From: Paracoccaceae bacterium
GTDB taxonomy: Bacteria > Pseudomonadota > Alphaproteobacteria > Rhodobacterales > Rhodobacteraceae
NCBI GenBank assembly: GCA_029243395.1
Contig: JAQWSE010000012.1
Coordinates: 1-64,000, forward strand
Direction of reading: 5' to 3'
Length of the DNA: 64,000 nt
Part shown: positions 2,311 to 29,340 of the stretch, in pieces
Numbering within the stretch: the stretch's first letter is position 1
How the letters are laid out: every line of letters begins with the position of its first letter
Made by a program: the position numbers and the translations under genes
Notes under the pieces: generated by a model
What the model saw: the letters and a program-made list of their open reading frames with translations, nothing else
Databases searched by the model: none
Told to the model about the DNA's origin: nothing

Positions 2311-2340
2311 TTGACGCAACGGTGGTTTTTATAGTGATAT
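2311..2340 (+). promoter_or_regulatory. Candidate promoter of the ABC importer operon
   Basis: TTGACG at 2311-2316 matches the -35 box in 5 of 6 positions. TGATAT at 2335-2340 with an 18-bp spacer is a weak -10 box. The LacI-type palindrome at 2356-2367 would then fall just downstream of the transcription start. The weak -10 box keeps the confidence low. Confidence 0.35.
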
Positions 2341-2355
2341 TCAGATAACGTTTAT

Positions 2356-2367
2356 GCAAACGTTCGC
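2356..2367. promoter_or_regulatory. LacI-family operator, site 1 (importer operon)
   Basis: GCAAACGTTCGC is a near-palindrome with the central CG typical of LacI/GalR operators. It differs by one base from the window consensus GCAANCGNTTGC. Including the outer T and A the symmetry runs over 14 bp, 2355-2368. It lies 50 bp in front of the importer operon start codon. Confidence 0.6.
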
Positions 2368-2417
2368 ATGGATTTTTTGAGACATCTTGGAATTTAGAGT
2401 GTGGAGAACAGATTGGG

Positions 2418-3227
2418 ATGACTAAAAGTGACCCTATTATTGTGGCGAATGATCTAACTATCGCTTACGAACTTCACCGAGAAAGAAAAAAACTAGTAGC
2501 TTTACAAAACATCACTTTAGAGGTGGATCCCGGAGAATTTGTAGTCTTAGTTGGTCCTTCTGGTTGCGGTAAAACCAGCTTTATAAATGCGATTTCTGGG
2601 TTAGTTCCTAAGGCAAGTGGAAGTGTTACTGTGAGGGGTAGTGAAGTAACTGGTCCTGGACCTGATCGGGCGATGGTATTCCAAGATTATGCGCTGCTTC
2701 CGTGGCGAACGGTCGAGTCAAACGTCAGAATGCCATTTGAATTTCAGAACTTGGGTTTATCTGAAGCAGAAAAAAATAAACGCGTAAAGGAATGCCTTGA
2801 ATTAGTTGATTTGACAGGTTTTGAGAAATCTTACCCATACGAGTTATCCGGAGGTATGAAACAACGAGTAGGAATTGCTCGGGCATTGATAACGAGTCCT
2901 GATATCCTACTTGCGGATGAACCTTTTGCGGCTATTGATGCAATGACTCGAGAAGCAATGCAGGCCGAAATGGAGCGGATTGTAATGGAGACGGGTCAAA
3001 CTTGCGTTTTCATTACGCACTCCATCGATGAGGCAATCTTGCTGGGAGATAGAGTTATTGTTATTTCTTATAGGCCTGGAAAAATAAAAGAAATTGTTCA
3101 TGTAAATTTTCCCCGACCACGAATGAATAATTCAGATGTTAAAACGTCAAAAGAATATGCAGAACTTCGAGATCATATATGGAATTTAGTGAAAGATGAG
3201 GCCTCGCAAACCAATAGAGGAGAGTAA
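2418..3227 (+). CDS. ABC transporter ATP-binding protein, NitT/TauT family
   Basis: A 269-residue nucleotide-binding subunit of the nitrate/sulfonate/taurine import family. Walker A (G-P-S-G-C-G-K-T) is at about residues 46-53, the Q-loop at Q89, the signature L-S-G-G-M-K-Q-R at about 143-150, Walker B with A-D-E-P-F at about 166-170, and the H-loop near residue 200 (I-T-H-S). It powers uptake together with the next two genes. The stop codon is 2 bp before the permease start, so the genes form an operon. A LacI-type operator lies upstream. The substrate is not readable; family members carry taurine, alkanesulfonates, nitrate, pyrimidine precursors or aromatic acids. Confidence 0.9.
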   Translation: MTKSDPIIVANDLTIAYELHRERKKLVALQNITLEVDPGEFVVLVGPSGCGKTSFINAISGLVPKASGSVTVRGSEVTGPGPDRAMVFQDYALLPWRTVESNVRMPFEFQNLGLSEAEKNKRVKECLELVDLTGFEKSYPYELSGGMKQRVGIARALITSPDILLADEPFAAIDAMTREAMQAEMERIVMETGQTCVFITHSIDEAILLGDRVIVISYRPGKIKEIVHVNFPRPRMNNSDVKTSKEYAELRDHIWNLVKDEASQTNRGE

Positions 3228-3229
3228 GA

Positions 3230-4111
3230 ATGGCGGCTACAAAAAATAAGTCCCTTCAGCAATTTGATACCGATGATCCAAATCGTATCCAAGATATAGG
3301 TTGGACTTTTAAGGAGGTATGGCGTCGCACGCGCGGCACGGTAGTTGTCTCGATAAATCTTATTACTTTCTTCATTTTGTGGGAACTAATAGTGATCTAT
3401 GGTGATATTAATCCATTATTTTTGCCAAAAGCTTCTGATATGTTTGCAGAGTTGTGGGTTGGTTTGACGACACGAGCTCCGGAAGGAGCAGTATTTTCAG
3501 GGAGCATATTAGATCATTTTTTACATAGTTTTAATAATTTAATGTTTGGACTTGCTATCGCTTGTTTAATTGGCATTCCTGGCGGGTTGTTAATGGGGGG
3601 AAACAAATATATCGAGTCCATTCTAAGTCCTTACGTATGGGCATTAGCTTCATTGCCAAGAATTGCGCTTGTACCGTTATTCATCTTGTTTCTTGGTTTC
3701 ACGACAAAAATGCAAGTTACGATAATAGTGATTTCAGCAGTTTTTCCAATTATGATTAATTCTTGGGCCGGTGTTAAAACAACCGAGAAGTCCTTGTTAG
3801 CTGCTGCACGCGTTTTTGGGGCAAATAGAGTGCAATTATATGTCAAAGTTGTTTTGCCTTACACATTACCATTTATTATTTCTGGTATCCAACAGGGTAT
3901 CGGTAGAGGTTTGATTGGGGTTGTTATTGCAGAGTTGTTTGGTGGTTCGAACGGCTTAGGTTACCTCATTCAAAGATCCGCGGACACATTTAATACCGCC
4001 ATGACTTTCGCTGTTTTGTTACTACTTATTGTGATGTCACTGTCACTAATAAATTTCACAAGATGGTTGGAAGCATACGTGGCTCCGTGGCGAAACGTGA
4101 ACCATATTTAG
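3230..4111 (+). CDS. ABC transporter permease, NitT/TauT family
   Basis: A 293-residue integral membrane protein of the TauC/SsuC type (BPD_transp_1 fold) with about six membrane segments. The EAA-like coupling loop is seen as A-A-R-V-F-G-A-N-R-x-x-x-x-x-K-V-V-L-P around residue 190. It forms the inner-membrane channel that works with the ATPase directly upstream. Start ATG 3230 follows a GGAGAG ribosome binding site lying in the last codons of the ATPase gene. The N-terminus of about 40 polar residues before the first membrane helix is typical of the family. Confidence 0.9.
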   Translation: MAATKNKSLQQFDTDDPNRIQDIGWTFKEVWRRTRGTVVVSINLITFFILWELIVIYGDINPLFLPKASDMFAELWVGLTTRAPEGAVFSGSILDHFLHSFNNLMFGLAIACLIGIPGGLLMGGNKYIESILSPYVWALASLPRIALVPLFILFLGFTTKMQVTIIVISAVFPIMINSWAGVKTTEKSLLAAARVFGANRVQLYVKVVLPYTLPFIISGIQQGIGRGLIGVVIAELFGGSNGLGYLIQRSADTFNTAMTFAVLLLLIVMSLSLINFTRWLEAYVAPWRNVNHI

Positions 4112-4147
4112 CGTGAACTAAATTCACAAATCCATAGGGAGAAAAAA

Positions 4148-5212
4148 ATGGCACTTAAAAAACAAAAAACACAAATATTATTACCTAGGAGAGAAGTCTT
4201 ACTTTCTGGCTCTCTCGGAGCATTAGGAATGGCAATCGGCGCTTCTGCTTTTTCTTATAAGGGAGCATTCGCTATGGATGCTGCAGCGGTGCAATCTAAT
4301 GTGAGCAAAATTCGCATGGCTGATTGGAACCCTAATTATGCAGCCCAGTGGTCTTGGAGACTCGCTCAGTTCAAAGGCTTTTTTGAGAGTGGGGGGATAA
4401 ATGAAATCGAATTTTTCCTTACTGATACATACTTTCCTGGTTTAATTGGAGGCAGTTTAGATGTTGCTCACTCTGATGTTGATATTTTATTCGGATCAGC
4501 AGCAGCAAGTGGCGCTCCCCTAAAATTGTTAAGTGTTTATCGAGATAAAGAATGGTGGATAATGGGCGTTGGCAAAGGCATTGACACTTTTGAAGATCTA
4601 AAGGGAGGAAAGATATCAGGCGGAGGCCTCGGAGGACGTAACACTTGGATCCAGCGTCAAATCTTAATTGAGAACGGTATTGATCCCGATAAAGATGTTG
4701 AAATGGTTCCGATGAAAGGTGGTTCCGATGGTCGCATGAAGGCCATCATTGCCGGAGTTATCCAGGGTGGATCTGTATTTCCACGCCACGAAAAAGGGAT
4801 AAAGGACAATGGGGGTAAATTCATTTCTGCCTATATTAAGGAAGTTCCGCAGGAAGGATTTATTACAAATATGGAGTGGGGTGCAAAAAATGAAGACGCC
4901 TTGTATGCTTGGCAATACGCCGAATTAAAAGCGCGACAATGGCTACACGATCCTGCAAATAAAGATTCAGCTTATGCTGAGATGCGGGCTAAAGGCTTTG
5001 ACATTCCTCCTGAATTTGAAGCTCAATATGAGACTGAGTTAAACCAGATATGCAAAGATGGCGGATTTACTGAAGCTTCCATGGATAGCTTTGCCCAAGG
5101 TGTTAGGGATTTGGGTCAGGTGCCACCAGATTTTGACTGGCGTACTGCGGTTGATTTGCGTTTCTTACATGCAGCTCAAGATGCATTAGGGATTCCACGT
5201 AGACCTGCATAA
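4148..5212 (+). CDS. ABC transporter substrate-binding protein, NitT/TauT (NMT1/TauA-like), Tat signal
   Basis: A 354-residue periplasmic solute-binding protein. The N-terminus carries a twin arginine (R14-R15) followed by a hydrophobic stretch and an A-F-A cleavage site near residue 42, so export by the Tat route is likely. The mature part resembles NMT1/TauA-like type-2 binding proteins, which trap the ligand between two lobes. It is the third gene of the importer operon, 36 bp behind the permease, with a GGGAG ribosome binding site. A strong terminator follows it. The ligand is unknown; the neighbouring GST and decarboxylase genes point to an organic acid rather than nitrate, which is inference. 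Confidence 0.85.
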   Translation: MALKKQKTQILLPRREVLLSGSLGALGMAIGASAFSYKGAFAMDAAAVQSNVSKIRMADWNPNYAAQWSWRLAQFKGFFESGGINEIEFFLTDTYFPGLIGGSLDVAHSDVDILFGSAAASGAPLKLLSVYRDKEWWIMGVGKGIDTFEDLKGGKISGGGLGGRNTWIQRQILIENGIDPDKDVEMVPMKGGSDGRMKAIIAGVIQGGSVFPRHEKGIKDNGGKFISAYIKEVPQEGFITNMEWGAKNEDALYAWQYAELKARQWLHDPANKDSAYAEMRAKGFDIPPEFEAQYETELNQICKDGGFTEASMDSFAQGVRDLGQVPPDFDWRTAVDLRFLHAAQDALGIPRRPA

Positions 5213-5299: not shown

Positions 5300-6235
5300 A
5301 TGGGTATATTAATAGATGGAAAGTGGGACCCAGACGCGAAAGGTATTACAGCTTCGGATGGCAGTTTCGTCAGACCTGAATCCCCTTATCGACATTTCAT
5401 TACAAGCCCAAAGAGTGGAAGATATCCTGCTGAAAAAAATAGATATAATTTAATTGTTTCTTTTGCCTGTCCGTGGGCGCATAGAAGTTTAATTTATCGA
5501 TCTATCTTAAACCTAGAGGATTGTATTGATGTATCAGTAGTTAATCCAATTAGCTACCCGAATGGATGGACTTTTGAGAGTTTTAAAGACGTGGTAAACA
5601 ATACTGGACAAGAGTTAAGGTATTTACGCGATCTTTACCTCTCTATCGATAAAAACTTCACGGGGAAAGTAACTGTACCCGCGTTGTGGGATAAAAAGAC
5701 CCGAACCATTGTAAACAATGAATCCTCTGAGATTATCAGAATGCTAGATGGTCCGTTTTGTGAACTCTTAGGAGAGAGTAGAGGTAGAATGTTTGGCGGA
5801 TACCCTCTTCCTGAAATTGATGAAATGAACGAATTTGTATACAAGGGGATCAATAACGGTGTTTATAGAGTGGGTTTTGCAACCAGCCAAAGCGCTTATG
5901 AGAATAGTGTTGACCTTCTTTTCAAAACCTTAGATCAGTTAGAGCAAGTTTTGGGAAAATCTGATTTTCTACTAGGAAAAGAAACGTGTGAATGTGATTG
6001 GCGTCTTTTGCCCACCTTAATTCGTTTCGATACAGTTTATTATTATCACTTCAAATGTAACCTTAGAAAATTAAAAAGTTACGAAAATTTGTCAAAATAT
6101 ATGGACCGACTTTTAAGTTTTCCTAAAGTTCGTAAGACCGTATTCCAGGATCACATTATTGATCATTATTACTTGTCACATTTAAAGATAAATCCTTTTG
6201 GGATCATACCAATTGGAGTAAGAAATCTTGCATAA
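5300..6235 (+). CDS. Glutathione S-transferase, glutathionyl-hydroquinone reductase (Xi class, YqjG/ECM4-like)
   Basis: A 311-residue protein with the Xi-class signature: a long N-terminal lead, then F-A-C-P-W-A-H-R with the catalytic cysteine at residue 57, and an all-helical C-terminal domain. Family enzymes (PcpF, YqjG, ECM4) remove glutathione from glutathionyl-hydroquinones, returning the free phenol and glutathione disulfide. The reaction is related to glutathione lyase steps in aryl-ether breakdown. It is the first of three consecutive GST genes behind the importer operon, which suggests a pathway with glutathione conjugate intermediates. The start ATG is followed by the family-typical G-x-L-x-D-G-x-W segment. 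Confidence 0.85.
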   Translation: MGILIDGKWDPDAKGITASDGSFVRPESPYRHFITSPKSGRYPAEKNRYNLIVSFACPWAHRSLIYRSILNLEDCIDVSVVNPISYPNGWTFESFKDVVNNTGQELRYLRDLYLSIDKNFTGKVTVPALWDKKTRTIVNNESSEIIRMLDGPFCELLGESRGRMFGGYPLPEIDEMNEFVYKGINNGVYRVGFATSQSAYENSVDLLFKTLDQLEQVLGKSDFLLGKETCECDWRLLPTLIRFDTVYYYHFKCNLRKLKSYENLSKYMDRLLSFPKVRKTVFQDHIIDHYYLSHLKINPFGIIPIGVRNLA

Positions 6236-6250: not shown

Positions 6251-7054
6251 ATGCTGACTTTATATCATTACGATAGATCGACGGCTGCACAAAGAGTTCG
6301 CCTGGGACTTGAGGAAAAGAAAATAGAGTGGCATAGTGAGATCGTGGATACTGCCATGGGAGACGCGAGCAAAAGGCCGGAGGGGTTTCACGAGTTAAAC
6401 CCAAAAGGCCTTATTCCTCTATTGGTTCATGATGGATTTGCTTTGCCTGAGTCAACATTAATTCTTGAATATTTGGAAGAAGCATTCCCAGACAACATTA
6501 GGCTAACGCCTCACTCCCCTCAGGATCGAGCGAGAATGCGACTATGGATGCGTCGCATAGAAGATGGAATTCATGTGGCTAGTCGAACCATCGGAGTTTG
6601 TATCGTTAATCGCTTCATTTATAAAGAGGCAGATAAATCAAAACTTGAGGATTATTATAAAAAAATGCGTGACACAACACGCAAAAATAATGATCAAATT
6701 AATATAGAATTGGGCTTAGATTCTCCGCTTCTAAAGCCCTCTATTGATGCATTTAAGAAGCTTTTCAGAGATATGAATGATCAGCTTTCGGAAACACCAT
6801 GGTTATCCGGTAAAGACTATTCTATCGCTGATATTTCTTTGGTTGTATATTTAACCAGAATGTCATCTTTTCAAATGGCACCTCTGTGGCATGATTTTTC
6901 TTATTTACAAAGTTGGTTTGAAAAGATTAAGGCTCGAGATGCCTACAAAAGGGCTGTTGATGATTGGGGTGATATAACTGCGGATAAAAGAAAGGTCGAG
7001 GGACAAGCCGCTTTTGAAACGATAAAATTGCTTTGGGAGGCGCCCCCGCAATAA
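6251..7054 (+). CDS. Glutathione S-transferase family protein
   Basis: A 267-residue protein with an N-terminal thioredoxin-like GST domain (residues 1-80). It contains R-S-T-A-A-Q-R-V-R, a cis-proline motif in N-P-K-G-L-I-P-L-L, and P-E-S-T-L-I-L-E-Y-L-E-E, the glutathione gamma-glutamyl binding motif. A helical C-terminal domain has the I-A-D-I N-capping motif near residue 190. There is a 15-bp gap to the preceding GST and a GGGGT ribosome binding site, so the genes are probably cotranscribed. The general shape and length resemble the bacterial beta-etherase type GSTs, less clearly than the next gene does. Substrate unknown. Confidence 0.8.
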   Translation: MLTLYHYDRSTAAQRVRLGLEEKKIEWHSEIVDTAMGDASKRPEGFHELNPKGLIPLLVHDGFALPESTLILEYLEEAFPDNIRLTPHSPQDRARMRLWMRRIEDGIHVASRTIGVCIVNRFIYKEADKSKLEDYYKKMRDTTRKNNDQINIELGLDSPLLKPSIDAFKKLFRDMNDQLSETPWLSGKDYSIADISLVVYLTRMSSFQMAPLWHDFSYLQSWFEKIKARDAYKRAVDDWGDITADKRKVEGQAAFETIKLLWEAPPQ

Positions 7055-7083: not shown

Positions 7084-7893
7084 TTGTCAATCGAATTATA
7101 CAATTTTTCCCAATCGACATGCAGTATAAAGGTTAGGCTTCTACTTGCTGAGAAAAAACTGCCTTGGATTGATAAATGCCTAGTTTCGTCTGAAAATCAG
7201 CATTTGTCAGATTGGTATCTCAAACTTAATCCTAATGGAGTGGTCCCAACTTTAATAGATGGTGGGCAATCTATTTTTGAATCGACTGCAATATTAGAGT
7301 ATCTTGAGGACAAATATGATAAGATTAATTTTCGCCCCAAAGATCCATTCTTGTGCAGTCAAGTAAGAGCATGGTTGGTTTTCACAGACGTGTGGCCAAC
7401 CCCAGCCGTACGAGTACCCTCGTTCCAATATGGTGGGTTAAGGGAAAAATTTAAGGTTATGAGCGATCAAACTTTTAAAGCTCTCAGAAAAAAGCGTCCC
7501 CTGAAGGTAGATTTCTACGAGTCTTTTGATAAAAATGATGGGTTTCATTTGAGTGAAGTTTACAATTCTTTCAAAGTATTATTACGCTCTTTTAAAAGGA
7601 TGGAACTATTACTGGAAAAATTTAGTGGGCCTTGGTTATTTGGCAAAAAATACACGATTGGAGATATAGCTATCCTTCCAACGGTAGACCGATTAGAGGA
7701 TCTTGGTTTTGATGCGCTCTGGAGATTAGCTTATCCTAGAGTTTCTGATTGGCTAAGAAATGCTCAAGAACGTAATGCAACAAAAAAGACTTTCTACCAT
7801 GGAAGTAGACTTTCCCATCAATTCCCCAACTTAGTACGAGGAGCAGGAAGTCACGATAAAATCGTAAGGGAATTCTTAAATTCAATAGATTAA
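7084..7893 (+). CDS. Glutathione S-transferase, LigF/beta-etherase-like
   Basis: A 269-residue GST that starts at TTG 7084 behind a good AAAGGA ribosome binding site. The N-terminal domain has S-Q-S-T-C-S-x-K-V-R, N-P-N-G-V-V-P and E-S-T-A-I-L-E-Y-L-E-D. The long helical domain ends with F-Y-H-G-S. It is clearly a paralogue of the GST at 18779-19612, sharing S-T-C-S-x-x-V-R, N-P-N-G-V-V-P, the V/I-R-x-P-S-x-x x-tract and the F-Y-H-G-S terminus. Layout and length fit LigF-type beta-etherases, which attack ether or leaving-group-bearing carbons with glutathione. The assignment to a true beta-etherase is inference from motif layout. Confidence 0.75.
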   Translation: MSIELYNFSQSTCSIKVRLLLAEKKLPWIDKCLVSSENQHLSDWYLKLNPNGVVPTLIDGGQSIFESTAILEYLEDKYDKINFRPKDPFLCSQVRAWLVFTDVWPTPAVRVPSFQYGGLREKFKVMSDQTFKALRKKRPLKVDFYESFDKNDGFHLSEVYNSFKVLLRSFKRMELLLEKFSGPWLFGKKYTIGDIAILPTVDRLEDLGFDALWRLAYPRVSDWLRNAQERNATKKTFYHGSRLSHQFPNLVRGAGSHDKIVREFLNSID

Positions 7894-8018: not shown

Positions 8019-8021
8019 TGG

Positions 8022-8033
8022 GCAAACGGTTGC
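8022..8033. promoter_or_regulatory. LacI-family operator, site 2 (FAD oxidoreductase gene)
   Basis: GCAAACGGTTGC fits the window consensus GCAANCGNTTGC exactly. It begins 3 bp after the -10 box of a near-consensus promoter and ends just before the ribosome binding site, so bound repressor would block initiation. Confidence 0.75.
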
Positions 8034-8046: not shown

Positions 8047-9624
8047 GTGCAATTTGACTTTATTATCGCCGGTGCAGGGCACAATAGTCTGATTACTGCC
8101 TGTTACTTATCAAAAGCGGGGTATTCTTGTAAAATAATCGATGCTCGTGCCATTCCAGGAGGTGGATGCGCGACGGAAGAGGTCTTAGGGCCTGGGTATA
8201 AAATTGATACCTGTTCAACAGGACACACTTTGATTCTTCAAAATCCAATAATAAAGTTAGATGAGTTAGGAATTGTCGAAAAGTATGGACTTTCATACTT
8301 GCAGCCAGATCCTGTAGCTCATGTTGCTTTGCCAGATGGTGAACAGATTACTATGTTTCTCGATGTAAAAAAAACAGTCAAAGAACTAGAAAGGTACTCT
8401 AAGTCCGATGCCCTAAATTATGCACGACTGATTGAAGAATTTAATGAGTTACGACCGCTCCTTGGTAAAGCTCGATCTGGTCCCATTGGCCTTGCTCCAA
8501 GTCTACAAGATTTATTGAAAGATCATCCTCGTGGCGGCATTTGGTTGCGTAGAATGGCGATGAGCGCAAAAGATGTGATCTTGCATGCATTTGAAAGCCC
8601 CCATGTTAGGGCATTTATGGGCTGGATGACTTTTCAAACTGCTGTACCAATAGATCAGGCAGGAACAGGCTTATTACCGTATCAAATAACTGCACCTAGG
8701 CAATCAAATAGCTGGTCTATTCCAAAGGGCGGTTCAGGAAAGTTAACAGAGGCATTAGTAAATTTTCTCAAAGATAACGGAGCAGAATTCACTTATGATA
8801 CTGTCGTAGAGAATTTAATTATAGACAATGGGCGCTGCATAGGCGTTAGAACTCTTGATAATAAAGAATATTATGGAAAAAAAGGCGTTATTTCCACAAT
8901 ACATATTAAACATTTGGTAGATATGGCGCCTAAAGAGCTCTGGGGTGAAAGTTTTCTTTTTGGTGTAGAGACTTACAACGTTGGCGTACCTTTTTTCTCA
9001 ACATATCTTTCGACTTCAGAACCTCCCATTTTTAAAACTCCAAGGGGCCCAAGATCAGCTGTATCAGCTGGTTATGCCGGCTGGTTTGAAGACCTCGTCC
9101 AGTCGGGGAGAGACATCTATGATGGTAAATTGTCTGAAAAGGTTACATGGTTGCTAGTAGCAACCCCTACACTTGTTGACCCATCGAGAGCACCTCATGG
9201 TCATCATACAGTTAAGTTTTTAACGCATACGATCTATGATTTGCCTGAAACAGGACCTAATGGATGGAGCGATCTAAAAACAAAATTTGGAGAAAACTTA
9301 CTGAGAAAAATTCAAGAGTTCTGTCCAACCTTTACTGATGACATTATTTTAGATCGCATGGTTAAATCCCCTGTGGATATTGAAATCTGGAATCGGCATA
9401 TGATAAATGGTGCTCCTCATGGAGGAGATAGATCTGTTACATTTTCTGGAGCTCAGAGGCCTGCTCCAGGATGGGCACAGCACAGAATGCCAATAGAAGG
9501 GCTATGGCAAACAGGCGGGACAACCCACCCAGGAGGTTCAATTACAGGTTATCCAGGCCGAAATGCGGCGATCGTAATTCTTCAAGATCTTGGTGTAGAC
9601 CCAGCCAATACGATGGTTTTTTAA
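8047..9624 (+). CDS. FAD-dependent oxidoreductase, phytoene desaturase-like
   Basis: A 525-residue protein of the NAD(P)/FAD-dependent oxidoreductase family related to carotenoid desaturases and isomerases (COG1233). The FAD dinucleotide-binding motif G-A-G-H-N-S-L is at residues 8-14, followed by the E/D-x-x-x-x-x-G-G-G segment near residue 40 (P-G-G-G-C-A-T). The C-terminal FAD-contact segment G-G-T-T-H-P-G-G-S-I-T-G-Y-P-G-R-N-A is near residue 490. Starts at GTG with GGGAA upstream. No other carotenoid gene is near, and a LacI operator sits on its promoter, so a catabolic redox role is more likely than pigment synthesis. The 3' end meets the oppositely directed hydrolase gene with one base between them. 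Confidence 0.8.
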   Translation: MQFDFIIAGAGHNSLITACYLSKAGYSCKIIDARAIPGGGCATEEVLGPGYKIDTCSTGHTLILQNPIIKLDELGIVEKYGLSYLQPDPVAHVALPDGEQITMFLDVKKTVKELERYSKSDALNYARLIEEFNELRPLLGKARSGPIGLAPSLQDLLKDHPRGGIWLRRMAMSAKDVILHAFESPHVRAFMGWMTFQTAVPIDQAGTGLLPYQITAPRQSNSWSIPKGGSGKLTEALVNFLKDNGAEFTYDTVVENLIIDNGRCIGVRTLDNKEYYGKKGVISTIHIKHLVDMAPKELWGESFLFGVETYNVGVPFFSTYLSTSEPPIFKTPRGPRSAVSAGYAGWFEDLVQSGRDIYDGKLSEKVTWLLVATPTLVDPSRAPHGHHTVKFLTHTIYDLPETGPNGWSDLKTKFGENLLRKIQEFCPTFTDDIILDRMVKSPVDIEIWNRHMINGAPHGGDRSVTFSGAQRPAPGWAQHRMPIEGLWQTGGTTHPGGSITGYPGRNAAIVILQDLGVDPANTMVF

Positions 9625-10768: not shown

Positions 10769-10847
10769 ATTTAACAATCTTTATAGGATTTAAAGTATTA
10801 ATTTTATCATTGTAGACACAAATATATTCTTTTGCTAGCATTTTTAC

Positions 10848-10859
10848 GAAAACGATTGC
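10848..10859. promoter_or_regulatory. LacI-family operator, site 3 (between divergent hydrolase genes)
   Basis: GAAAACGATTGC differs from the consensus GCAANCGNTTGC by one base in the left half. It lies in the 189-bp divergent gap between two hydrolase genes, so one repressor dimer could act on both. No convincing -35/-10 pair was found around it. Confidence 0.5.
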
Positions 10860-17274: not shown

Positions 17275-17278
17275 ATTT

Positions 17279-17290: not shown

Positions 17291-17315
17291 AGAATTTATT
17301 GCAGGACTAGCTTTT

Positions 17316-20782: not shown

Positions 20783-20794
20783 ATGGAGAAAATC

Positions 20795-23148: not shown

Positions 23149-23151
23149 AAA

Positions 23152-24147
23152 ATGCCAGAAATTACACTGTCACAAGCAGTTAACCAAGCGATAGCTGAAG
23201 AGATGCGGCGGGATGAGACCGTGTTTCTTATCGGAGAAGACGTTGCAGAGGCTGGCACGCCTTTTAAGGTAACCTCTGGTTTGGTTGAAGAATTCTCTAC
23301 TGATAGGATTATAGATACACCTATTTCTGAGCCAGGTTTTATGGGACTGGCAGTAGGCGCTGCCATGACTGGCTCAAGACCTATTGTAGATTTAATGTTC
23401 GGGGATTTTTTATTCTTAGTTATGGATCAATTGTGTAATCAGGCGGCAAAGATACACTACATGTCAGGGGGTAAATTAAATGTCCCACTTGTATTAAGAA
23501 CAAATCTTGGAGCCACCAGACGTTCAGCTGCGCAACATAGCCAGTCTTTACATGCTCTAGTTGCCCATATTCCTGGGTTAAAGGTTGCGATGCCGTCGTC
23601 TGCCTATGAAGCTAAAGGATTATTAAAAACGGCAATAAGAGATGACAACCCCGTTGTAATTTTTGAAGATAAACTCATGTACCAGGATAAGGCTTTTGTT
23701 CCAGAAGAAGAATATCGTCTACCATTTGGTAAAGCGGCTATACTGAGAGAGGGGACTGACGTGACTTTAATTGGAACGTCTTCAATGCGTCAGGTTTGTG
23801 AAAAGGCTGCGCTGCTTTTGGAACAAGATGGGATTAACGCCGAAGTTATTGATCCTAGAACCCTAGTCCCTTTAGATGAAAGTACCATTTTGGATTCTGT
23901 TAAAAGAACATCAAGAGCAATCGTTGTTGACGAGGGGCATCAAAATTTTGGAACTACGGCAGAGATTGCCTCACGAATTAGCGAAAAGGCATTCTATTTC
24001 TTGGATGCTCCAGTTGTTAGAATGGGAGCGATGGATGTTCCTATCCCTTTCAGTCCAGTGCTAGAGGATATTACGGTACCAACCGCAGAGGGTGTTGCGG
24101 ATAAAGCCAGAAAACTTGTTGCTGGAGAATTAATACATGCCCTTTGA
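23152..24147 (+). CDS. ThDP-dependent dehydrogenase E1 component, beta subunit (AcoB/PdhB-like)
   Basis: A 331-residue E1 beta subunit of a 2-oxoacid or acetoin dehydrogenase. Family segments are present: G-E-D-V-A at about residues 25-29, the D-T-P-I-S-E region near 56, and the C-terminal transketolase domain with V-D-P-R-T-L-V-P-L-D near 235. It pairs with the alpha subunit to form the alpha2beta2 E1. Its 3' end overlaps the start of the lipoyl protein gene by 11 nt, so the three genes are translated as a unit. Confidence 0.85.
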   Translation: MPEITLSQAVNQAIAEEMRRDETVFLIGEDVAEAGTPFKVTSGLVEEFSTDRIIDTPISEPGFMGLAVGAAMTGSRPIVDLMFGDFLFLVMDQLCNQAAKIHYMSGGKLNVPLVLRTNLGATRRSAAQHSQSLHALVAHIPGLKVAMPSSAYEAKGLLKTAIRDDNPVVIFEDKLMYQDKAFVPEEEYRLPFGKAAILREGTDVTLIGTSSMRQVCEKAALLLEQDGINAEVIDPRTLVPLDESTILDSVKRTSRAIVVDEGHQNFGTTAEIASRISEKAFYFLDAPVVRMGAMDVPIPFSPVLEDITVPTAEGVADKARKLVAGELIHAL

Positions 24148-25114
24148 AATTAAAATGCCACAGCTTGGAATGAATCAAGATAGTGCAACAATTGTTACTT
24201 GGCTCAAAAATGTAGGTGACAAAGTAACAAAAGGTGAGGCAATTTTTGAGGTAGAGACTGACAAGGCGACTATGGAGGTAGAGGCACAGTCAGAGGGTTA
24301 TTTATCATGTATACAAGTTGAATTAGGTGTTGAGATTCCAGTTGGAGAATTGATCGCAACAATTGTAGAAAACAAAAAAGATGTCGTTAAAAGCGTCAGA
24401 GCGCCAGTATTAACAAATGAAGAAGATTCAAAATTAGATGAAGAACAAAAAAGCTCAATTGAAAAGGAAGTTGCTGCTGGGAAAAATGATGTGCCTACAA
24501 GTGAGGAGGAAAATAGCTCTAAAAGCCAAGAACTTGTTTCTCCAAGTTCTGCTAGCAAAAAAGTCTTAGCATCACCGAAAGCTAAAGTTATAGCAGCAGA
24601 GAGAGGAATTCAGGTTTCCAGGCTTCGGTCTTTAGGCCTTTCTGAGCCAATCCATGCATCTGACATGATGGGGTTGCCTGTTGGGGGCCAATCTAACTTA
24701 ATGGCCGTTGTTGATGATGGGTTGTTTCTGGAGCTAGTTGAAGGATCAGATAAAATCGACAAAAAAACAATCTTTGTATCTTTTGTGCGTGGTGCTTGGC
24801 GTTTTTTATTTCCCGAAAAAGCGTTAAGCGTGCAGATTATAAATTTGGACGGCTCGGTATCGTCATCGGGTGATACAGACTCTAGAAACCATGAGGCCCC
24901 TGCGGTTTCAATTTCACTATTTGACTTGCGTAAAACGAAGTTATTTAGCTATGGTTCAGGAAGCAGCGGAAATATTCTCAGTATAGGTCATCACAATGGT
25001 ACTTTTATATTAAATTTTTCATATAGTGATGCGGACATTCAATTATCTGATGCCACTAAATTAATTAACGAGATAGCGGCAAGGGTAGAGAACCCTATTC
25101 TCCAACTACTATAG
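24137..25114 (+). CDS. Lipoyl-domain E2-like protein with a degenerate acyltransferase domain
   Basis: A 325-residue protein. The N-terminal lipoyl domain (1-80) has the target lysine K43 in E-T-D-K-A-T. An acidic linker (85-140) leads to a peripheral subunit-binding domain (about 145-178, S-P-K-A-K-V-I-A-A-E-R-G-I). Normal E2 proteins then have about 230 residues of catalytic domain ending with H-x-x-x-D-G. Here only about 140 residues remain. The C-terminal strand aligns with the E2 end (F-S-Y then E-N-P-I-L-Q-L-L), but the His and Asp-Gly are replaced by S-D-A-D-I-Q-L-S-D-A. It can carry a lipoyl-bound acyl group but probably cannot do classical acyl transfer to CoA. Confidence 0.8.
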   Translation: MPFEIKMPQLGMNQDSATIVTWLKNVGDKVTKGEAIFEVETDKATMEVEAQSEGYLSCIQVELGVEIPVGELIATIVENKKDVVKSVRAPVLTNEEDSKLDEEQKSSIEKEVAAGKNDVPTSEEENSSKSQELVSPSSASKKVLASPKAKVIAAERGIQVSRLRSLGLSEPIHASDMMGLPVGGQSNLMAVVDDGLFLELVEGSDKIDKKTIFVSFVRGAWRFLFPEKALSVQIINLDGSVSSSGDTDSRNHEAPAVSISLFDLRKTKLFSYGSGSSGNILSIGHHNGTFILNFSYSDADIQLSDATKLINEIAARVENPILQLL

Positions 25115-25122: not shown

Positions 25123-26559
25123 ATGAAAGAGTTAAAAAACCAGTTATATATTAATGGTGAATGGCGTCCCGCTTCAGATGGTGGAACTTTTCAAGTATTG
25201 GATCCAGCCACAGAAAAAGTCATAACTAATGTCGCTAGCGGAACTGTCGATGACGCGATGTTATGCCTAAAAGCGGCAGAAGATGCCTTTCCCTTATGGG
25301 CATCGAAAAGTCCTCGTGAAAGGGGAGAAATATTAAGAAAAGCTTTTGAATTAATTACAGAGAAATTAGATATTATATCCAACCTAATCACATTAGAGAA
25401 CGGCAAAGGAGCTTCTGACGCAATTGGTGAGGCAAGATATGCAGCTGAATTTTTTCGTTGGTATGCTGAGGAGGCGGTTCGTTCAGAAGGACATCTAGGG
25501 ATGGCCCCATCGACAGGTGCTCGTGTGCTAGTACATCAGAAACCAGCGGGAATTTCAGTTCTCGTAACTCCCTGGAATTATCCCGCAGCTATGGGTGCTA
25601 GAAAAATTGGTCCCGCCCTTGCTGCAGGTTGTCCAGTAATTATAAAGCCAGCGTCAGAGACTCCTCTGACAATGTTAGCATTGATGCCAATTTTAGAAAA
25701 AGCAGGAGTGCCTCCGGGCGTAGTAAATGTTTTGCCGTCTCGCTCTTCCGGTAGTGTTGTGGGTGCGATTCTAAGAGATCGTCGAACAAAAGTTGTTAGT
25801 TTTACAGGGTCAACAGAAGTTGGGCGACAAATCTTACACGCAGCGGCTGATAATGTTATCAAGCCTGCAATGGAGTTGGGCGGAAACGCTCCATTTATTG
25901 TTTGTGAGGATGCTAACTTGGAGGCGGCAGCAGATGGGTTAATGGTCGCAAAAATGCGTAATTTAGGTGAAGCCTGTACTGCCGCAAATAGAATTTACGT
26001 GCACGAGAACGTGGAATTAGAATTTGTCGAACGATTTATTAAGAAAATGGCCAAGCTTAAGATGGGTAACGGAAGTGACGCTAGTATTGATGTTGGTCCT
26101 TTAGTTAATGCGGAGACAAGAGATAAAGTTGATTACTTTGTTCGTGACGCGGTTTCCAAAGGTGCAAAGATTAATTTAGGTGGGAAAAAACCTGAAGGTA
26201 AAGGTTTTTTCTATCCACCCACAGTTTTAACAAATGTTCCTGACAGTGCTGATTGTCTCTCTGACGAAATATTTGGGCCGGTTGCTGCTATTCAAACATT
26301 TAATAGCGAAATGGAAATTATCGAACGGGCAAATAATACGGAATATGGATTAGTGGCATATGTTTACACGACCGACCTAAAGAGAGGTATGAATATATCA
26401 GAAAATTTAGAATTTGGTATGATCGGTTTAAATCGAGGCCTTGTTTCGGACCCAGCAGCTCCCTTTGGAGGCGTAAAACAATCGGGATTGGGTAGGGAAG
26501 GCAGTAAAGAGGGAATGTTAGAGTTTCAGGAAACTCAATACATTTCAACTGAATGGTAA
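25123..26559 (+). CDS. NAD(P)-dependent aldehyde dehydrogenase family protein
   Basis: A 478-residue aldehyde dehydrogenase. The coenzyme-binding region T-P-W-N-Y-P is at 149-154, F-T-G-S-T-E-V-G at 227-234, the general base is E251 in E-L-G-G-N, and the nucleophile is C285 in G-E-A-C. Length and motifs fit the succinate-semialdehyde dehydrogenase-like group, but residue-level specificity cannot be read. It follows the E2-like gene by 8 bp and precedes a 57-codon small gene by 4 bp, so it belongs to the long operon 22168-29340. It would oxidise an aldehyde released earlier in the pathway. Confidence 0.9.
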   Translation: MKELKNQLYINGEWRPASDGGTFQVLDPATEKVITNVASGTVDDAMLCLKAAEDAFPLWASKSPRERGEILRKAFELITEKLDIISNLITLENGKGASDAIGEARYAAEFFRWYAEEAVRSEGHLGMAPSTGARVLVHQKPAGISVLVTPWNYPAAMGARKIGPALAAGCPVIIKPASETPLTMLALMPILEKAGVPPGVVNVLPSRSSGSVVGAILRDRRTKVVSFTGSTEVGRQILHAAADNVIKPAMELGGNAPFIVCEDANLEAAADGLMVAKMRNLGEACTAANRIYVHENVELEFVERFIKKMAKLKMGNGSDASIDVGPLVNAETRDKVDYFVRDAVSKGAKINLGGKKPEGKGFFYPPTVLTNVPDSADCLSDEIFGPVAAIQTFNSEMEIIERANNTEYGLVAYVYTTDLKRGMNISENLEFGMIGLNRGLVSDPAAPFGGVKQSGLGREGSKEGMLEFQETQYISTEW

Positions 26560-26563
26560 GCAA

Positions 26564-26737
26564 ATGGAAATAGACCCTTTCTGGTATGGTGAAAAATACA
26601 TTTATACTGCGAGGGTTCCCCTTGATTTAATTTTTAAGCGTCGCGTTATAAATGGAGTTGATGCAACTCACTTCACCTCACACTATAGAAGCCTCCTCGC
26701 GAGACCCGATGAACTGGTGATTGACCGACTTGAATGA
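26564..26737 (+). CDS. Small protein of unknown function, 57 residues, in operon
   Basis: A short open frame exactly fills the gap between the aldehyde dehydrogenase (stop 26557-26559) and the iron-sulfur subunit. The ATG lies 4 bp after one stop, and its TGA ends 1 bp before an ATG in frame with the next gene. The product starts M-E-I-D-P-F-W-Y-G-E-K-Y and ends D-E-L-V-I-D-R-L-E. It is hydrophilic, with a basic middle (F-K-R-R) and no membrane segment or metal motif. I do not recognise the family. The tight spacing on both sides is the main argument that it is a gene. Confidence 0.55.
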   Translation: MEIDPFWYGEKYIYTARVPLDLIFKRRVINGVDATHFTSHYRSLLARPDELVIDRLE

Positions 26738-26750
26738 GATGGGAAAGACG

Positions 26751-27233
26751 ATGTCTAAGGCAAAAGATTCGATATCTTTGACCATTAATGGATCAAAATA
26801 TAAGATAAAAGCGGATCAGGATACTCCTCTTTTGTTTGTGCTTAGAGACAATATAGGTTTGTGCGCGACTCGTTATGGTTGCGGTGAAGCAACTTGTGGA
26901 GCGTGTACTGTGATTATTGATGGCCAAGCAGTAATGTCTTGCGATATTTCATTGGGTGCTGTTGCGGGAAAATCAGTTCAAACAGCTGAAGGAATGCAAA
27001 CCAAGCCTAGTCACCCTTTGTTAGAGGCTTTCATTAAACATCAAGCTGGTCAGTGTGGATATTGCTTAACAGGTATATTAATGGCGTCAAAAGCTCTCTT
27101 AGAAAAAGAGCCTTTCGCGACGAGAAAAAGAATAGCAGAAGTTTTGGACTCAAATCTATGCCGTTGTGGAGCTCATTCAAGAATATTAGATGCAGTTGAA
27201 GAAGCTGGGAAGTTTATGAGTAAGGAGCAATGA
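26751..27233 (+). CDS. (2Fe-2S)-binding subunit of a xanthine dehydrogenase-family molybdenum hydroxylase (IorA/CoxS-like)
   Basis: A 160-residue small subunit. The plant-ferredoxin-type cluster ligands are in C-G-E-A-T-C-G-A-C near residue 45, and the second cluster ligands are in C-G-Y-C-L-T-G near residue 100 and C-R-C-G-A-H near residue 137. It passes electrons from the molybdenum site to an acceptor. The start at ATG 26751 has GGGAAAG upstream; ATG 26739 and TTG 26721 are in the same frame and possible. The large subunit starts 1 bp after its stop. No FAD-binding medium subunit gene is next to it. Confidence 0.9.
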   Translation: MSKAKDSISLTINGSKYKIKADQDTPLLFVLRDNIGLCATRYGCGEATCGACTVIIDGQAVMSCDISLGAVAGKSVQTAEGMQTKPSHPLLEAFIKHQAGQCGYCLTGILMASKALLEKEPFATRKRIAEVLDSNLCRCGAHSRILDAVEEAGKFMSKEQ

Positions 27234-27234
27234 A

Positions 27235-29340
27235 ATGATCCCTCCATCTCCACTTGTAGCTGCGCCACATCTACAGAATTGGTTGAAACTTTCAGAGGAA
27301 AAAAAATTAATTTTTTTCACAGGTCGTGTTGAATTAGGTCAAGGCAATACCACAGCACTTTTAATGATGATAGCCGATGAGTTAGACGTTCTGCCTTCCT
27401 CAATAATTTTAGAAACTGCCCGCACAGATCTAACACCAAATGAAGGTATCACTGCAGGGAGTATGTCTATAACCATTGGAGGCCAGGCACTACGTTGGGT
27501 GGCATCTGCCTTAAGGGTTCAGATTTTAGACATTGCTTCAAAACAATTGAAAGTTAATTCCAAAGATTTTTCTATTTGTGAAGGTTATATCTTTGATCGA
27601 GGAAAGAAAACGGAGTTTTCTTTGAATGATTTTTTTGATGGACTTGATTTAACTAGAAAAATTGTTGATGACGCCAAACCAAAGAGTTTCAAAGAAAGAC
27701 GGAAGAGCTTTAGAGACATAAATAGAATTGATTTAGAATCTCGACTCTTTGGAGCTCCATTCATCCATGATTTGAAATTCGATGGTATGGTCTACGGTGC
27801 TCCAGTTCACCCCCCTAATACTCATTCTCATTTAGTTAGTTTAGATCTTGAAATGTTAAAAGGCCGCCCTGGTGTCATAAAGGTAGTCAAGAACGGTTCG
27901 TTTGTGGGCATAATAGCATCAACTTCTTACCACGCAAAAAATGCTGCAAACTGGGCTAGAAATAATGGAAAATGGGAAAGTAATATCAAAGAGCCGTTTA
28001 ATCTCTTTGAAAACCTAAAGAATTTAAATACAAAGCCAGAGACAGTGATTGAGTCAAGAGACGTAAATAAGAATTCCGGAACTTGGTTTGAAATTACCGC
28101 ATCACGGCCATTTATTTATCACGGTTCAATAGGTCCAGCTACTGCTATCGCAAAGGCTGAGAAAGACAAGATCACCATTTTCACGCATAGTCAGGGAGTA
28201 TTTCAATTAAGACAAGCTATTGCAAAAGTCTTAAATACAGCAGAGGAAAAGATTTGCGTAATACATAAACCCGGTTCAGGTTGCTATGGGCACAATGGAG
28301 CGGATGATGTAGCGTTCGATGCTGTTCTAATGGCTAAATCTGTAACTGGAAGATTTCTAAAGGTTGTCTGGTCCAGATTTGATGAATTTCATTCATCACC
28401 AATGGGAGCTTCCATGGTAACAAAATCAAGAGCCCTACTTTCTTCTAATAACCGACTTGTTGCTTTCGATGTGGACGTAAGTTCCACACCTCATACCAAT
28501 AGGCCCAATGCTAACTTCCCAAATTTGCGGGCGGCAGGATATTTGGCCAATCCTATTTCCCCTTCGCGGACTCCTGATGTGCCAGTGGAGAGAGGGGGAG
28601 GAGCCGATAGAAATGCGATTCCATCTTATGAAGTGGGGGGTGTAAGGGTTAGAAAGCGGATTATATATGATACTCCATACAGAACATCTGCGCTGCGCTC
28701 TTTGGGGGCGTATTGCAATGTAGTCGCCAATGAGGCGCTTTTAGATAGTATTGCGAAACAAATTGAGGTTGAACCTATTGCTTTTCGTCTCGATCACACA
28801 ACCGACCCGCGAGCTAGGGAAATACTGGAGCGTCTCGATTATGAAACCAAGAAAGATAGGGCAGTCTCCAATGAAGAGGGTATTGGCTGGGGCATTGGTT
28901 TTGCGCGCTATAAAGGTTCAGGAGGCTACTGTGCGGTAATGGTTAAAGTTCATGTAGGTGAAAATGTAAGCGTTACAGATGCAATATCCGTGTCCGATGT
29001 GGGAGAAGCTGTCAGCTCAGATGGAGTAAAAAATCAGGTTGAGGGTGGAATTATTCAATCAATTAGTTGGACTTTAAAGGAGTGTGTGCCAGTGGATGGA
29101 TTTTCGGCAACTGCTGAATCATGGACAGATTATCCTATTCTTAAATTTAGTGAAATTCCAAATTTGCGCACAATTCTTATTGATAGACCTGAGGAAAAGC
29201 CTCTTGGAGCAGGAGAAATTTCTCAAGGTCCTACAGGCGCTGCTATAGTTAATGCTGTGGCCGATGCTATCGGATGTCATGTGACAAATTTACCAATTAC
29301 AAGAGATGCGATAATTGGCACCATAAATGCTGAAGATTAG
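27235..29340 (+). CDS. Molybdopterin-binding large subunit of a xanthine dehydrogenase-family hydroxylase (IorB-like)
   Basis: A 701-residue catalytic subunit of the isoquinoline-1-oxidoreductase/aldehyde oxidase type. Visible are G-R-V-E-L-G-Q-G-N near residue 30, molybdopterin-contact segments such as G-G-A-D-R-N-A-I-P near 455, and the catalytic Glu (E661) in G-A-G-E near the C-terminus. Such enzymes hydroxylate N-heterocycles or oxidise aldehydes with water as the oxygen source. With the 2Fe-2S subunit it forms a two-subunit enzyme. The gene ends the island, and its last 3 bases overlap the converging pckA stop. No XdhC-like maturation gene is in the window. Confidence 0.85.

Follow-up and report, generated by a model that had tools for sequence, protein, structure and literature searches.

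The sphingomonad pathway for beta-aryl ethers comprises LigDLNO, LigE/LigF/LigP or BaeAB, and LigG, and the nicotine pathway of Paenarthrobacter pAO1 includes a 2,6-dihydroxypseudooxynicotine (DHPON) hydrolase. PMC6369299 places BaeAB and LigF in the sphingomonad pathway and describes a serine of LigF as important. Here we compare with these systems a 27-kb island of 26 genes in a bacterium related to the roseobacters. The island lies in a window of 64,000 nucleotides, the whole stretch of DNA analysed, and its host genome (2.49 Mb) is small relative to most family members scanned. The 26 genes appear to be jointly controlled by one repressor for the import and breakdown of a compound that probably contains a ring. 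On sequence grounds the island is a conserved, apparently undescribed catabolic regulon, with a mechanism that we in part infer; no published description of such a pathway was found in the literature searched.

Table 1. Genes and predicted operators of the island, with positions in the window.
Feature	Position	Strand	Basis
Predicted LacI operator, importer-GST operon promoter	2356..2367	+	GMAAACRNTYGC match
ABC importer: ATPase, permease, NMT1-type binding protein	2418..5212	+	PF00005, PF00528, PF09084
Xi-type (glutathionyl-hydroquinone reductase-like) GST	5300..6235	+	PF13409/PF13410 (GST_N_2/GST_C_2), CPWA motif
GST2	6251..7054	+	Pfam
GST3, STCSxxVR N-terminal motif	7084..7893	+	Pfam, structure match
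Predicted LacI operator before flavoprotein gene	8022..8033	+	Motif match
CrtO/phytoene-desaturase-like FAD oxidoreductase (flavoprotein)	8047..9624	+	Pfam; NCBIfam 260 bits, cut-off 1000
ABH1, FrsA/DHPON-hydrolase-like alpha/beta hydrolase	9626..10777	-	Pfam; GVSRGG nucleophile motif
Predicted LacI operator between divergent ABH1 and ABH2	10848..10859	+	Motif match
ABH2 hydrolase	10958..11866	+	Pfam
Gfo/Idh/MocA dehydrogenase, creatininase-family protein, cupin, D-2-hydroxyacid dehydrogenase	11970..15133	+	Pfam, NCBIfam
Amidohydrolase_2, hydroxybenzoate-decarboxylase type	15169..16125	-	Pfam, structure match
LacI-family repressor	16159..17181	-	Pfam, NCBIfam
Predicted LacI operator pair, 54 bp apart	17225-17236 and 17279-17290	.	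Motif match
OsmC-family protein	17277..17804	+	Pfam; listed start TTG
Beta-hydroxyacid dehydrogenase (HIBADH family)	17835..18782	+	Pfam, NCBIfam
GST4	18779..19612	+	Pfam, structure match, model
ABH3, FrsA-like, C-C hydrolase of DHPON hydrolase family	19706..20782	+	Structure match
M24-fold enzyme, new subfamily	20783..22102	+	Asp to Cys at metal-ligand position
E1 alpha and beta, 2-oxoacid/acetoin-type dehydrogenase	22168..24147	+	Pfam, NCBIfam
Lipoyl protein: lipoyl domain, E3-binding-like stretch, degenerate E2-like domain without DHR motif	24137..25114	+	
Aldehyde dehydrogenase (ALDH), succinate-semialdehyde type	25123..26559	+	NCBIfam 511 bits, cut-off 646
Remnant, 3' end of lost E2 acyltransferase gene (~52 codons)	26567..26722	+	
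Molybdenum hydroxylase small (2Fe-2S) and large (molybdopterin) subunits	26721..29340	+	Pfam, NCBIfam

The gene classes named in the first-pass annotation are all present at the positions in Table 1 (open reading frames, Pfam, NCBIfam), and the dehydrogenase that it coupled to a GST indeed overlaps GST4 by 4 bp. Its E1/lipoyl pair needs amending insofar as E1 is two genes, and its list was too short, since the flavoprotein, ABH2 and the Gfo operon also belong to the system.

Two lines of evidence support its proposal that the stretch is one candidate catabolic system governed by a LacI repressor of its own. First, the same operator-like site stands at four promoter regions. With operon extents taken from strand and spacing, region 1 serves the importer, the Xi-type GST, GST2 and GST3, and region 2 the flavoprotein; regions 3 and 4 are divergent, serving ABH1 and ABH2-Gfo-creatininase-cupin-dehydrogenase, and lacI-decarboxylase and OsmC-HIBADH-GST4-ABH3-M24-E1-lipoyl-ALDH-Mo-hydroxylase, respectively. 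The LacI-type motif GMAAACRNTYGC has 8 matches in the host genome, 5 of them at these four regions within less than 15 kb (binomial 4e-10 for a fixed stretch, 7e-8 for any stretch, with the motif derived from the same window). The reversed pattern gives 6 matches, close to the 8 of the operator, so the evidence is the location of the sites and not their number. Counterparts of the importer-operon site precede the ABC operon in four other loci, the flavoprotein site recurs before the same gene in four, and the place between ABH1 and ABH2 is occupied in five. A pair spaced by 50-57 bp lies upstream of lacI in 15 of 17 LacI hits (18 loci scanned), in 13 distinct genomes, Rhizobiaceae included, against 7 of 3400 shuffles. 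Sites also stand at the corresponding promoters in G004, G147, G151 and G154, where under looser scoring (12 of 14) non-promoter sites made up 1 of 6, 1 of 6, 4 of 10 and 6 of 11, respectively. The island thus has what marks a LacI-controlled regulon, a palindromic predicted operator at the target promoters that is conserved together with lacI. Because the second site of the pair overlaps the listed TTG start of the OsmC gene, the true start is probably the ATG near 17316. When the compound is absent, a loop between the two operators would keep LacI on its own promoter. The inducer of this one protein would reveal the compound, and the shared operator is a direct handle on it.

Secondly, linkage of the genes is conserved in other lineages. 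We scanned 29 window genes, the 26 of the island and the flanking metE-like, TauE and PEPCK genes. Two other lineages, G147 and G151, carry 27 and 28 of the 29, each on one contig and in rearranged order, and G154 carries 21, split over two loci. Identity at pooled four-fold sites (expectation from composition in brackets) is 37% (30%) for G147, 30% (30%) for G151, 21% (20%) for G154 and 19% (18%) for G155; values at or near random indicate that the divergence is old. Judged by these comparisons, the linkage is beyond chance. Linkage of GST3, GST4, ABH1, ABH3 and M24, which had been suggested as a check, is seen in G004, G147 and G151, and for all except GST3 in G154. Neither homologues scattered without linkage nor distinct known substrates for each operon, the outcomes that would have spoken against one system, were encountered in what was searched. 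Further copies of the set are found in records titled Rhodobacteraceae isolates AG-343, AG-359, AG-390 and AG-422, which we take to be single cells from the surface ocean.

The M24-E1-lipoyl-ALDH module is common to many roseobacters without GST4; of the best 80 M24 loci, 9 carry GST4 and 71 lack it. Since the sequence upstream of M24 is 6 kb or longer in 63 of the 71, truncation explains few of the absences. This distribution speaks against a wholly glutathione-based pathway. An SDR is carried by 65 of the 71, four annotated roseobacter plasmid copies have a sugar-type importer alongside, and in G118 the module lies amid inositol-type genes. Such neighbours fit a non-aromatic origin of the M24 half, and from its distribution among genomes the block is a reusable module. 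They also favor the view that the island holds two or three separate co-regulated pathways, with M24-E1-lipoyl-ALDH and Gfo-creatininase serving polyols or sugar acids and a second set serving glutathione detoxification. In line with this, the Gfo protein is weakly inositol-like (iolG, 122 bits, cut-off 355), as is the creatininase-family protein (IolN, 43.5 bits, cut-off 245), which scores higher as MftE (104.5 bits, cut-off 172). However, all island promoter regions share the operator, the linkage has long been kept, and the importer-GST operon of G154 keeps a near-consensus operator before it on a separate contig; we regard separate pathways as unlikely. The Gfo operon has the identical four-gene order in three other loci, and in G147 ABH2 lies downstream of an Opp/Dpp-type importer.

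In M24 metallopeptidases the metal is bound by five ligands (D, D, H, E, E). In the island protein Cys298, invariant in 16 aligned sequences, stands at the second metal-ligand Asp, so the metallopeptidase set is incomplete, and the DddP equivalog model gives 109.1 bits against a cut-off of 600. At least 80 genome loci carry the subfamily, as do some actinobacterial plasmids, where database records label it an Xaa-Pro peptidase; fixing its function would correct many annotations. The E2 remnant is 40% identical to residues 241-292 of the E2 of another locus, L149 (E 5e-11 in a 261-base target). No intact E2 gene is found in the locus, and elsewhere in the host genome there are only 31% and 33% matches; E2 is present in 55 of the best 80 M24 loci. 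Genes for E1, E2 and E3 do not stand together as for a pyruvate/acetoin dehydrogenase complex, and with the dedicated E2 gene lost the E1-lipoyl step would be incomplete unless another E2 serves. No FAD subunit gene adjoins those of the molybdenum hydroxylase.

One GST had been assigned to the glutathionyl-hydroquinone-reductase type, and its CPWA motif and GST_N_2/GST_C_2 domains agree with this Xi class; no NCBIfam model matched it. It is 68-95% identical to the island copies in G004, G005, G147 and G151, only 46% to that in G154, and at most 51% to other copies listed. Matches to GST2 above 50% identity occur in 3 of 147 genomes (its own included), all island-bearing. GST4 is matched at 64-70% identity by 14 plasmid records out of 15, every one of the 14 from Rhizobiaceae. 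LigF is the best solved-structure match for GST2, GST3 and GST4 (62.6, 71.4 and 74.4 bits) and the best structural match for the predicted model of GST4 (26% identity). The LigF serine described in PMC6369299, presumably Ser14, aligns with a Ser in GST4. The label LigF-like is apt at this level, but the beta-etherase model NF042997 reaches just 25.3 bits for GST2 and 25.7 for GST4 (cut-off 440; GST3 not listed), and no island GST attains a curated functional cut-off in NCBIfam. A true lignin-type beta-aryl ether pathway, to which the three LigF matches might point, is very improbable given these scores and the lack of an SDR dehydrogenase in the island. With no SDR C-alpha dehydrogenase among the Pfam assignments and beta-etherase scores far below cut-off, the earlier analogy is not supported as a sign of pathway membership.

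GST4 could instead be a glutathione-dependent cis-trans isomerase with ABH3 as the following C-C hydrolase, in the logic of maleylacetoacetate isomerase and fumarylacetoacetase and with glutathione cleaving no bond. Among NCBIfam models, GST3 and GST4 score best with maleylacetoacetate isomerase, the STCSxxVR motif aligns with the zeta-class SSCAHRVR, a 45% identical homologue of GST4 in Pseudosulfitobacter adjoins a fumarylacetoacetate-hydrolase gene, and six loci place GST4 beside an intradiol dioxygenase. We nevertheless find this reading rather doubtful, as the model scores (GST4 89.8, GST2 73.5, GST3 69.3 bits) stay below the cut-off of 171.05, the Xi-type GST would have nothing to do, GST4 is closest to LigF among solved structures, and Pfam recognises no ring-cleavage dioxygenase in the island, the small cupin and the molybdenum hydroxylase left aside. 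It shares ground with the reading that we prefer, which also allows for isomerisation. Pfam likewise recognises no flavin or Rieske ring hydroxylase among the island proteins, and both absences count against the preferred reading too.

The six loci, on plasmids of Shinella, Rhizobium, Ensifer and Sinorhizobium and in G082 and G078, pair LacI and GST4 with the dioxygenase, which suggests an aromatic substrate, and also hold a branched-chain-type binding protein, an SDR (elsewhere in the locus in Ensifer), BKACE and a zinc-type dehydrogenase. They share with the island LacI (48-51%), GST4 (65-68%) and the operator pair, an ABH3-like hydrolase in Shinella and Ensifer, and a molybdenum hydroxylase in Shinella, but they differ in the downstream half, which relies on a ring-cleavage dioxygenase and BKACE. 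No HIBADH, M24 or E1 was found in them, nor was a description of their function in the literature searched. Among named solved structures the amidohydrolase is best matched by decarboxylases of 5-carboxyvanillate and gamma-resorcylate, with bit scores of 189.6 and 179.4, and this homology, with metal-ligand motifs that we take to be those of hydroxybenzoate decarboxylases, makes it a putative member of that group. ABH3, with 157.6 bits to 2jbw over 339 residues and a GVSLGG motif, is a predicted DHPON-type C-C hydrolase; ABH1 is 24% identical to it. A Paenarthrobacter M24 locus holds an HsaA-like phenol-hydroxylase component (286 bits, cut-off 450). The decarboxylase and DHPON-hydrolase families, the six intradiol loci and this HsaA-like neighbour argue for an aromatic context.

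We put the probability at about one half that the island is one LacI-controlled catabolic regulon with glutathione-aided breakdown steps, a role for glutathione being suggested by the three LigF matches and the aligned serine. The imported compound, aromatic or hetero-aromatic and bearing an oxygenated side chain, would be oxidised by HIBADH, the flavoprotein and the molybdenum hydroxylase. At an activated carbon, a LigF/zeta-type GST would let glutathione displace a leaving group, or would isomerise that carbon, and the Xi-type GST would remove glutathione reductively. ABH1 and ABH3 would hydrolyse a C-C bond adjacent to a ketone by the retro-Claisen chemistry of DHPON hydrolase, the decarboxylase would trim a ring acid, and the M24-E1-lipoyl-ALDH module would turn a side-chain fragment into a CoA ester or acid. 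The importer resembles Sao/nitrate/taurine types in its best NCBIfam models, all those listed being below cut-off, and a TauE/SafE gene adjoins its operon in the window and in G004, G005, G147, G151 and G154. Both would suit a desulfonation in which a GST attacks a keto-sulfonate and TauE/SafE exports the departing sulfite, but the sulfonate model gives the binding protein 28.6 bits (cut-off 163.5), TauE proteins form a broad family, and in the window the TauE gene precedes the operator and is not part of the operon. To our knowledge such a glutathione-dependent reaction has no biochemical precedent, and we consider it highly improbable. Returning to the glutathione-aided regulon, we tentatively suggest, with the odds against us, a new aerobic pathway class of streamlined, probably open-ocean Rhodobacteraceae, in which LigF/zeta-like GSTs and the Xi-type reductase would act on a common dissolved organic compound by breaking a C-O, C-S or C-halogen bond, and the Cys-site M24 enzyme would process the fragment, feeding an E1-lipoyl pair without its own E2. 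That a 2.49-Mb genome keeps 26 genes under one predicted repressor, with the set in AG isolates, suggests a substrate worth having.

In conclusion, the island resembles the sphingomonad ether pathway in combining a dehydrogenase with several GSTs, one expected to remove glutathione. However, its dehydrogenase is of the HIBADH and not the SDR family, an Xi-type GST replaces LigG, GST3 and GST4 align Cys-Ser with the Asn-Ser of BaeA, and C-C hydrolases, M24, E1-lipoyl, the molybdenum hydroxylase and LacI control are added. With the pAO1 nicotine pathway it shares a molybdenum hydroxylase, a DHPON-type C-C hydrolase and a succinate-semialdehyde-type dehydrogenase, but it adds glutathione enzymes, a decarboxylase and M24, and its only flavin oxidase-like gene is CrtO-like. 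Like the DMSP lyase DddP, which is similar in length to the island M24, and the ectoine hydrolase DoeA, it places a non-peptidase M24 fold in a catabolic cluster, though with Cys for the metal-ligand Asp and among different neighbours.

The 26 genes between 2418 and 29340 of the window are predicted, from their promoter regions, to stand under one LacI-type repressor, and this is the strongest result of the analysis. A recurring palindrome with the pattern GMAAACRNTYGC was seen in the intergenic sequence of the island, and it matches the window five times against 0.22 expected (100 dinucleotide shuffles, none of which reached five). This count is circular since the motif was read by eye from the window, and the fair test is therefore the location of matches across the genome and in relatives. 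The source genome (2.49 Mb, 13 contigs, 97.9% complete; the window is bases 1-64000 of contig 5, with a GC content of about 40%) contains eight matches, five of which lie inside 0.6% of the sequence, corresponding to a binomial probability of 4e-10 for a fixed stretch and about 7e-8 for any stretch of 15 kb. The number of matches proves nothing alone, because a reversed-pattern control gave six in the same genome; it is their location that carries the argument. The OsmC start as listed, which the operator at 17279 overlaps, is taken to be too early.

Predicted operators and other features of the window
Feature	Position	Location or remark
Predicted operator	2356	before importer-GST operon
Predicted operator	8022	before flavoprotein gene
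Predicted operator	10848	between divergent ABH1 and ABH2 (alpha/beta hydrolases)
Predicted operators	17225 and 17279	between lacI and OsmC
lacI	16159-17181 (-)	predicted island repressor
M24 gene	20783-22102	M24-fold enzyme
Lipoyl protein gene	24137-25114
E2 3'-end remnant	26567-26722	in 161-bp gap after ALDH
TauE/SafE exporter gene	1327-2094
Palindrome TTGTTAACGTTAACAA	1909-1924	perfect, 16 bases, within TauE gene
Hairpin	5213-5275	between binding-protein and Xi-GST genes
PEP carboxykinase gene	29337-30941	flanking

In relatives, with palindromes counted once, G004 (same genus) has 5 of its 8 matches inside the island, G147 5 of 16, G151 5 of 17 and G154 3 of 26, with reversed-pattern controls of 3, 10, 13 and 12, respectively. 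With a looser 12/14 score, sites at corresponding promoters made up 5/6, 5/6, 6/10 and 5/11 of those in the fetched stretches, and the remaining sites fell elsewhere. The relocated GST3 operon and Gfo operon (Gfo, creatininase, cupin and D-2-hydroxyacid dehydrogenase) of G151 have one operator-like site in common between them, and a near-consensus site precedes the importer-GST operon of G154 on its separate contig. Upstream of lacI, two sites 50-57 bp apart were found for 15 of 17 LacI hits, in 13 distinct genomes (L070 and L176 lie on the same contig, as do L107 and L179); such a pair arose in 7 of 3400 shuffles, which preserved base composition only and not dinucleotides. The pair was absent upstream of the Streptomyces and R. 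bangladeshense hits (2/17), and is kept in Rhizobiaceae though LacI is only 48-49% identical there.

The first-pass annotation had proposed a glutathione-assisted catabolic system and named conserved co-occurrence of its genes as the check, and co-occurrence is what we found. When 29 window genes (the metE-like gene, TauE, the 26 island genes and PEP carboxykinase) were compared by tblastn with fetched stretches, a hit requiring 33% identity or more and coverage of 40% of the query or more, 28, 27 and 28 of them were linked on one contig each in G004, G147 and G151. The metE-like gene was missed in all three, as was PEP carboxykinase in G147, where the contig stops. In G154, contig 3 carries 13 genes and contig 9 carries 9, which amount to 21 different genes. 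Closest loci were in records titled Rhodobacteraceae or Paracoccaceae.

Two lines of evidence indicate that this linkage is old and has outlived rearrangement. First, gene order and orientation differ between the relatives' islands; G151 has the flavoprotein and ABH1, then a block from LacI to the Mo-hydroxylase and PEP carboxykinase; these are followed by GST3, the Gfo operon and, last, the importer-GST2 operon, in varying directions. Secondly, four-fold degenerate sites are near random (8-46% identity per gene across four genomes, for 21 genes of which some are missing from some genomes), alongside 92-96% identity of the M24 protein. Recent horizontal transfer could also account for a common linkage, and pooled four-fold identity in G147 is slightly above the composition expectation (37% against 30%); we reject it for G151 (30%, 30%), G154 (21%, 20%) and G155 (19%, 18%), where these sites equal that expectation.

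Within the genus the island is accessory. Among 11 other members scanned, M24 is present in G003, G004 and G005 and was not found in the remaining eight, whose completeness is 66-83%. Across 147 genomes, our own (G000) included, GST2 (identity above 50%) and the creatininase protein (E 1e-40) are each confined to G000, G004 and G005. ABH3 is found in G000, G003, G004, G005 and G076, and G051 has a match at 36%. The beta-hydroxyacid dehydrogenase (HIBADH) is found at E 1e-60 in seven genomes, all seven with an M24 orthologue. Contig 3 of G154 (L184/L179) carries beside ABH2 a second Gfo-creatininase copy, apparently split into several frames, and contig 9 an intact pair. The TauE/SafE gene recurs beside the importer-GST operon in L050, L174, L175, L177 and L185, with two copies each in L174 and L175.

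All gene classes named in the first-pass annotation, from importer and GSTs to molybdenum hydroxylase, were recovered with Pfam and NCBIfam, which added a CrtO-like flavoprotein, the hydrolase ABH2, an OsmC protein and the Gfo operon. With 391 bits against a cut-off of 321, E1 beta qualifies for a broad pyruvate-dehydrogenase-like subfamily model, and the other 25 of 26 proteins reach no NCBIfam cut-off among the matches listed (the best 25 models for the ABC ATPase and the succinate-semialdehyde-type aldehyde dehydrogenase, ALDH). Family assignments are thus sound, and substrate assignments are not.

The downstream half of the island (M24-E1-lipoyl-ALDH) is a reusable module. Among the best 80 named M24 loci of 364 relatives (89-100% identity), the genes near M24 include E1 alpha (69 loci), E1 beta (65), the lipoyl protein (63), ALDH (62) and a separate E2 (55), but GST4 in only nine loci and ABH3 in eight; these are lower bounds, as some loci stop at contig ends, and in GC-rich loci genes were called by a simple script whose starts can be wrong. 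In the same set, 65 of the 71 loci without GST4 contain an SDR whose sequence is close to that of a Phaeobacter one, and 10 of the 11 without E1 have M24 followed by one or two SDR genes; in L104 the next gene after M24 and SDR resembles FMN lactate dehydrogenase (288 bits against a cut-off of 376). A sugar-type importer is also present in all four annotated roseobacter plasmid copies examined. On plasmids of Streptomyces and Paenarthrobacter, M24 (61% and 53%) is accompanied by a HIBADH-family dehydrogenase, a fused E1 and an E2, and in Paenarthrobacter also by an HsaA-like phenol-hydroxylase component; alkanesulfonate monooxygenase was rejected for the nearby Streptomyces LLM protein (29.8 bits, cut-off 518).

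Six of the 80 loci (L072-L075, L079, L133) have PEP carboxykinase beside the module; this may reflect an insertion site, or the gene may be a gluconeogenic partner. M24 is 92% identical in L133 (titled Acidobacteria MAG) and 95% in L071 (titled SAR202 MAG), contigs that are probably mis-binned. In roseobacters (66 of the 80 loci, and L149, L150, L160 and L161) an SBP_bac_1-domain protein precedes M24. The L149 copy (583 aa) has this domain at residues 224-490, and its first 200 residues, without a Pfam family, read like a winged helix-turn-helix; it may act in the cytoplasm as a regulator with a solute-binding sensor domain.

Six other loci parallel the upstream half (LacI, GST4), on plasmids of Shinella, Rhizobium, Ensifer and Sinorhizobium and in two further members of the family, G082 and G078. 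In each, LacI and GST4 are accompanied by a branched-chain-type binding protein, an intradiol dioxygenase, BKACE and a zinc-type dehydrogenase; an SDR is adjacent in five of the six. The Shinella and Ensifer loci have an ABH3-like hydrolase, and that of Shinella an island-like Mo-hydroxylase. The GST4 half is represented in Shinella sp. HZN7, and a Roseibium strain has a LacI-OsmC-HIBADH-GST4-M24 version. By association only, the neighbouring genes of the six loci suggest that the substrate of the LacI/GST4 pair is aromatic.

GST3 and GST4 are 40% identical, and GST2 is 28-29% identical to each. The best solved-structure match of all three is LigF (GST2 62.6, GST3 71.4, GST4 74.4 bits), which is also the closest fold to the GST4 AlphaFold model (26% identity, TM 0.70-0.79), a soft ranking given moderate model confidence (pLDDT 71.6). 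The N-terminal motif STCSxxVR of GST3 and GST4 aligns its last Ser with a LigF Ser, which we take to be Ser14, and its Ser-Thr-Cys with the zeta-class Ser-Ser-Cys. Ser14 is named as important in LigF in PMC6369299. Since the motif aligns with both, the sequence leaves cleavage versus isomerisation undecided; GST2 has Ala-Ala at that position. The first island GST contains CPWA, the Xi-class motif. Xi-type relatives occur in 82 of 147 genomes, so that only the island copies of 68-95% identity are informative and the marker value is weakened; the G154 copy (46%) is indistinguishable from ordinary ones. The hairpin preceding this gene, with GGGGTCAAA and TTTGACCCC in its arms (-24.6 kcal/mol, z -4.8, 0/200 shuffles as good), is likely an attenuator or 3'-end protector that would reduce GST expression relative to that of the binding protein.

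The lipoyl protein contains a single lipoyl domain, and its residues 139-325, an E3-binding-like stretch and a C-terminal domain, align with E2 (hhalign probability 86%, E 5e-6) with the DHR motif absent. In other loci ALDH is followed by a lipoyl-free E2 gene, and the corresponding gap in the window contains only a remnant of 52 codons (40% identity, E 5e-11 against a small target). Elsewhere in the source genome E2-like hits are 31% and 33% only, on other contigs; E2 is kept in the G147 and G155 loci and was not found in that of G151. Another E2 may serve the E1-lipoyl pair, or the pair may work differently. A split E2, with a lipoyl-bearing protein with a degenerate E2-like domain (similar in this to E3-binding protein X) and a lipoyl-free E2, is seen in L149 at 15355-16641 and 18098-18976.

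The M24 protein is, judged by its sequence, a distinct subfamily. It scores 109 bits against the DddP model (cut-off 600), and in alignments with DddP and a prolidase the second metal Asp position is Cys, in the motif RTCYYRTF; this comes from alignment alone, as the AlphaFold model is unusable (pLDDT 36.6). RTCYYRTF and SGERCxPHPH show no variation across 16 sequences (52-100% identity), actinobacteria included.

In conclusion, the island is real and long conserved, a single regulon as its predicted operators have it, and without a described counterpart in the literature searched. That search covered titles and abstract starts, with subscription papers and preprints mostly outside it, so absence of a description of this gene set is not proof. 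Homarine catabolism was considered first and dropped, as the literature search gave no link to the island genes. An aromatic, glutathione-assisted reading fits best, on the basis of similarity to known families and of the neighbouring genes. The beta-aryl ether analogy drawn in the first-pass annotation holds as logic only, and not as membership of that pathway.
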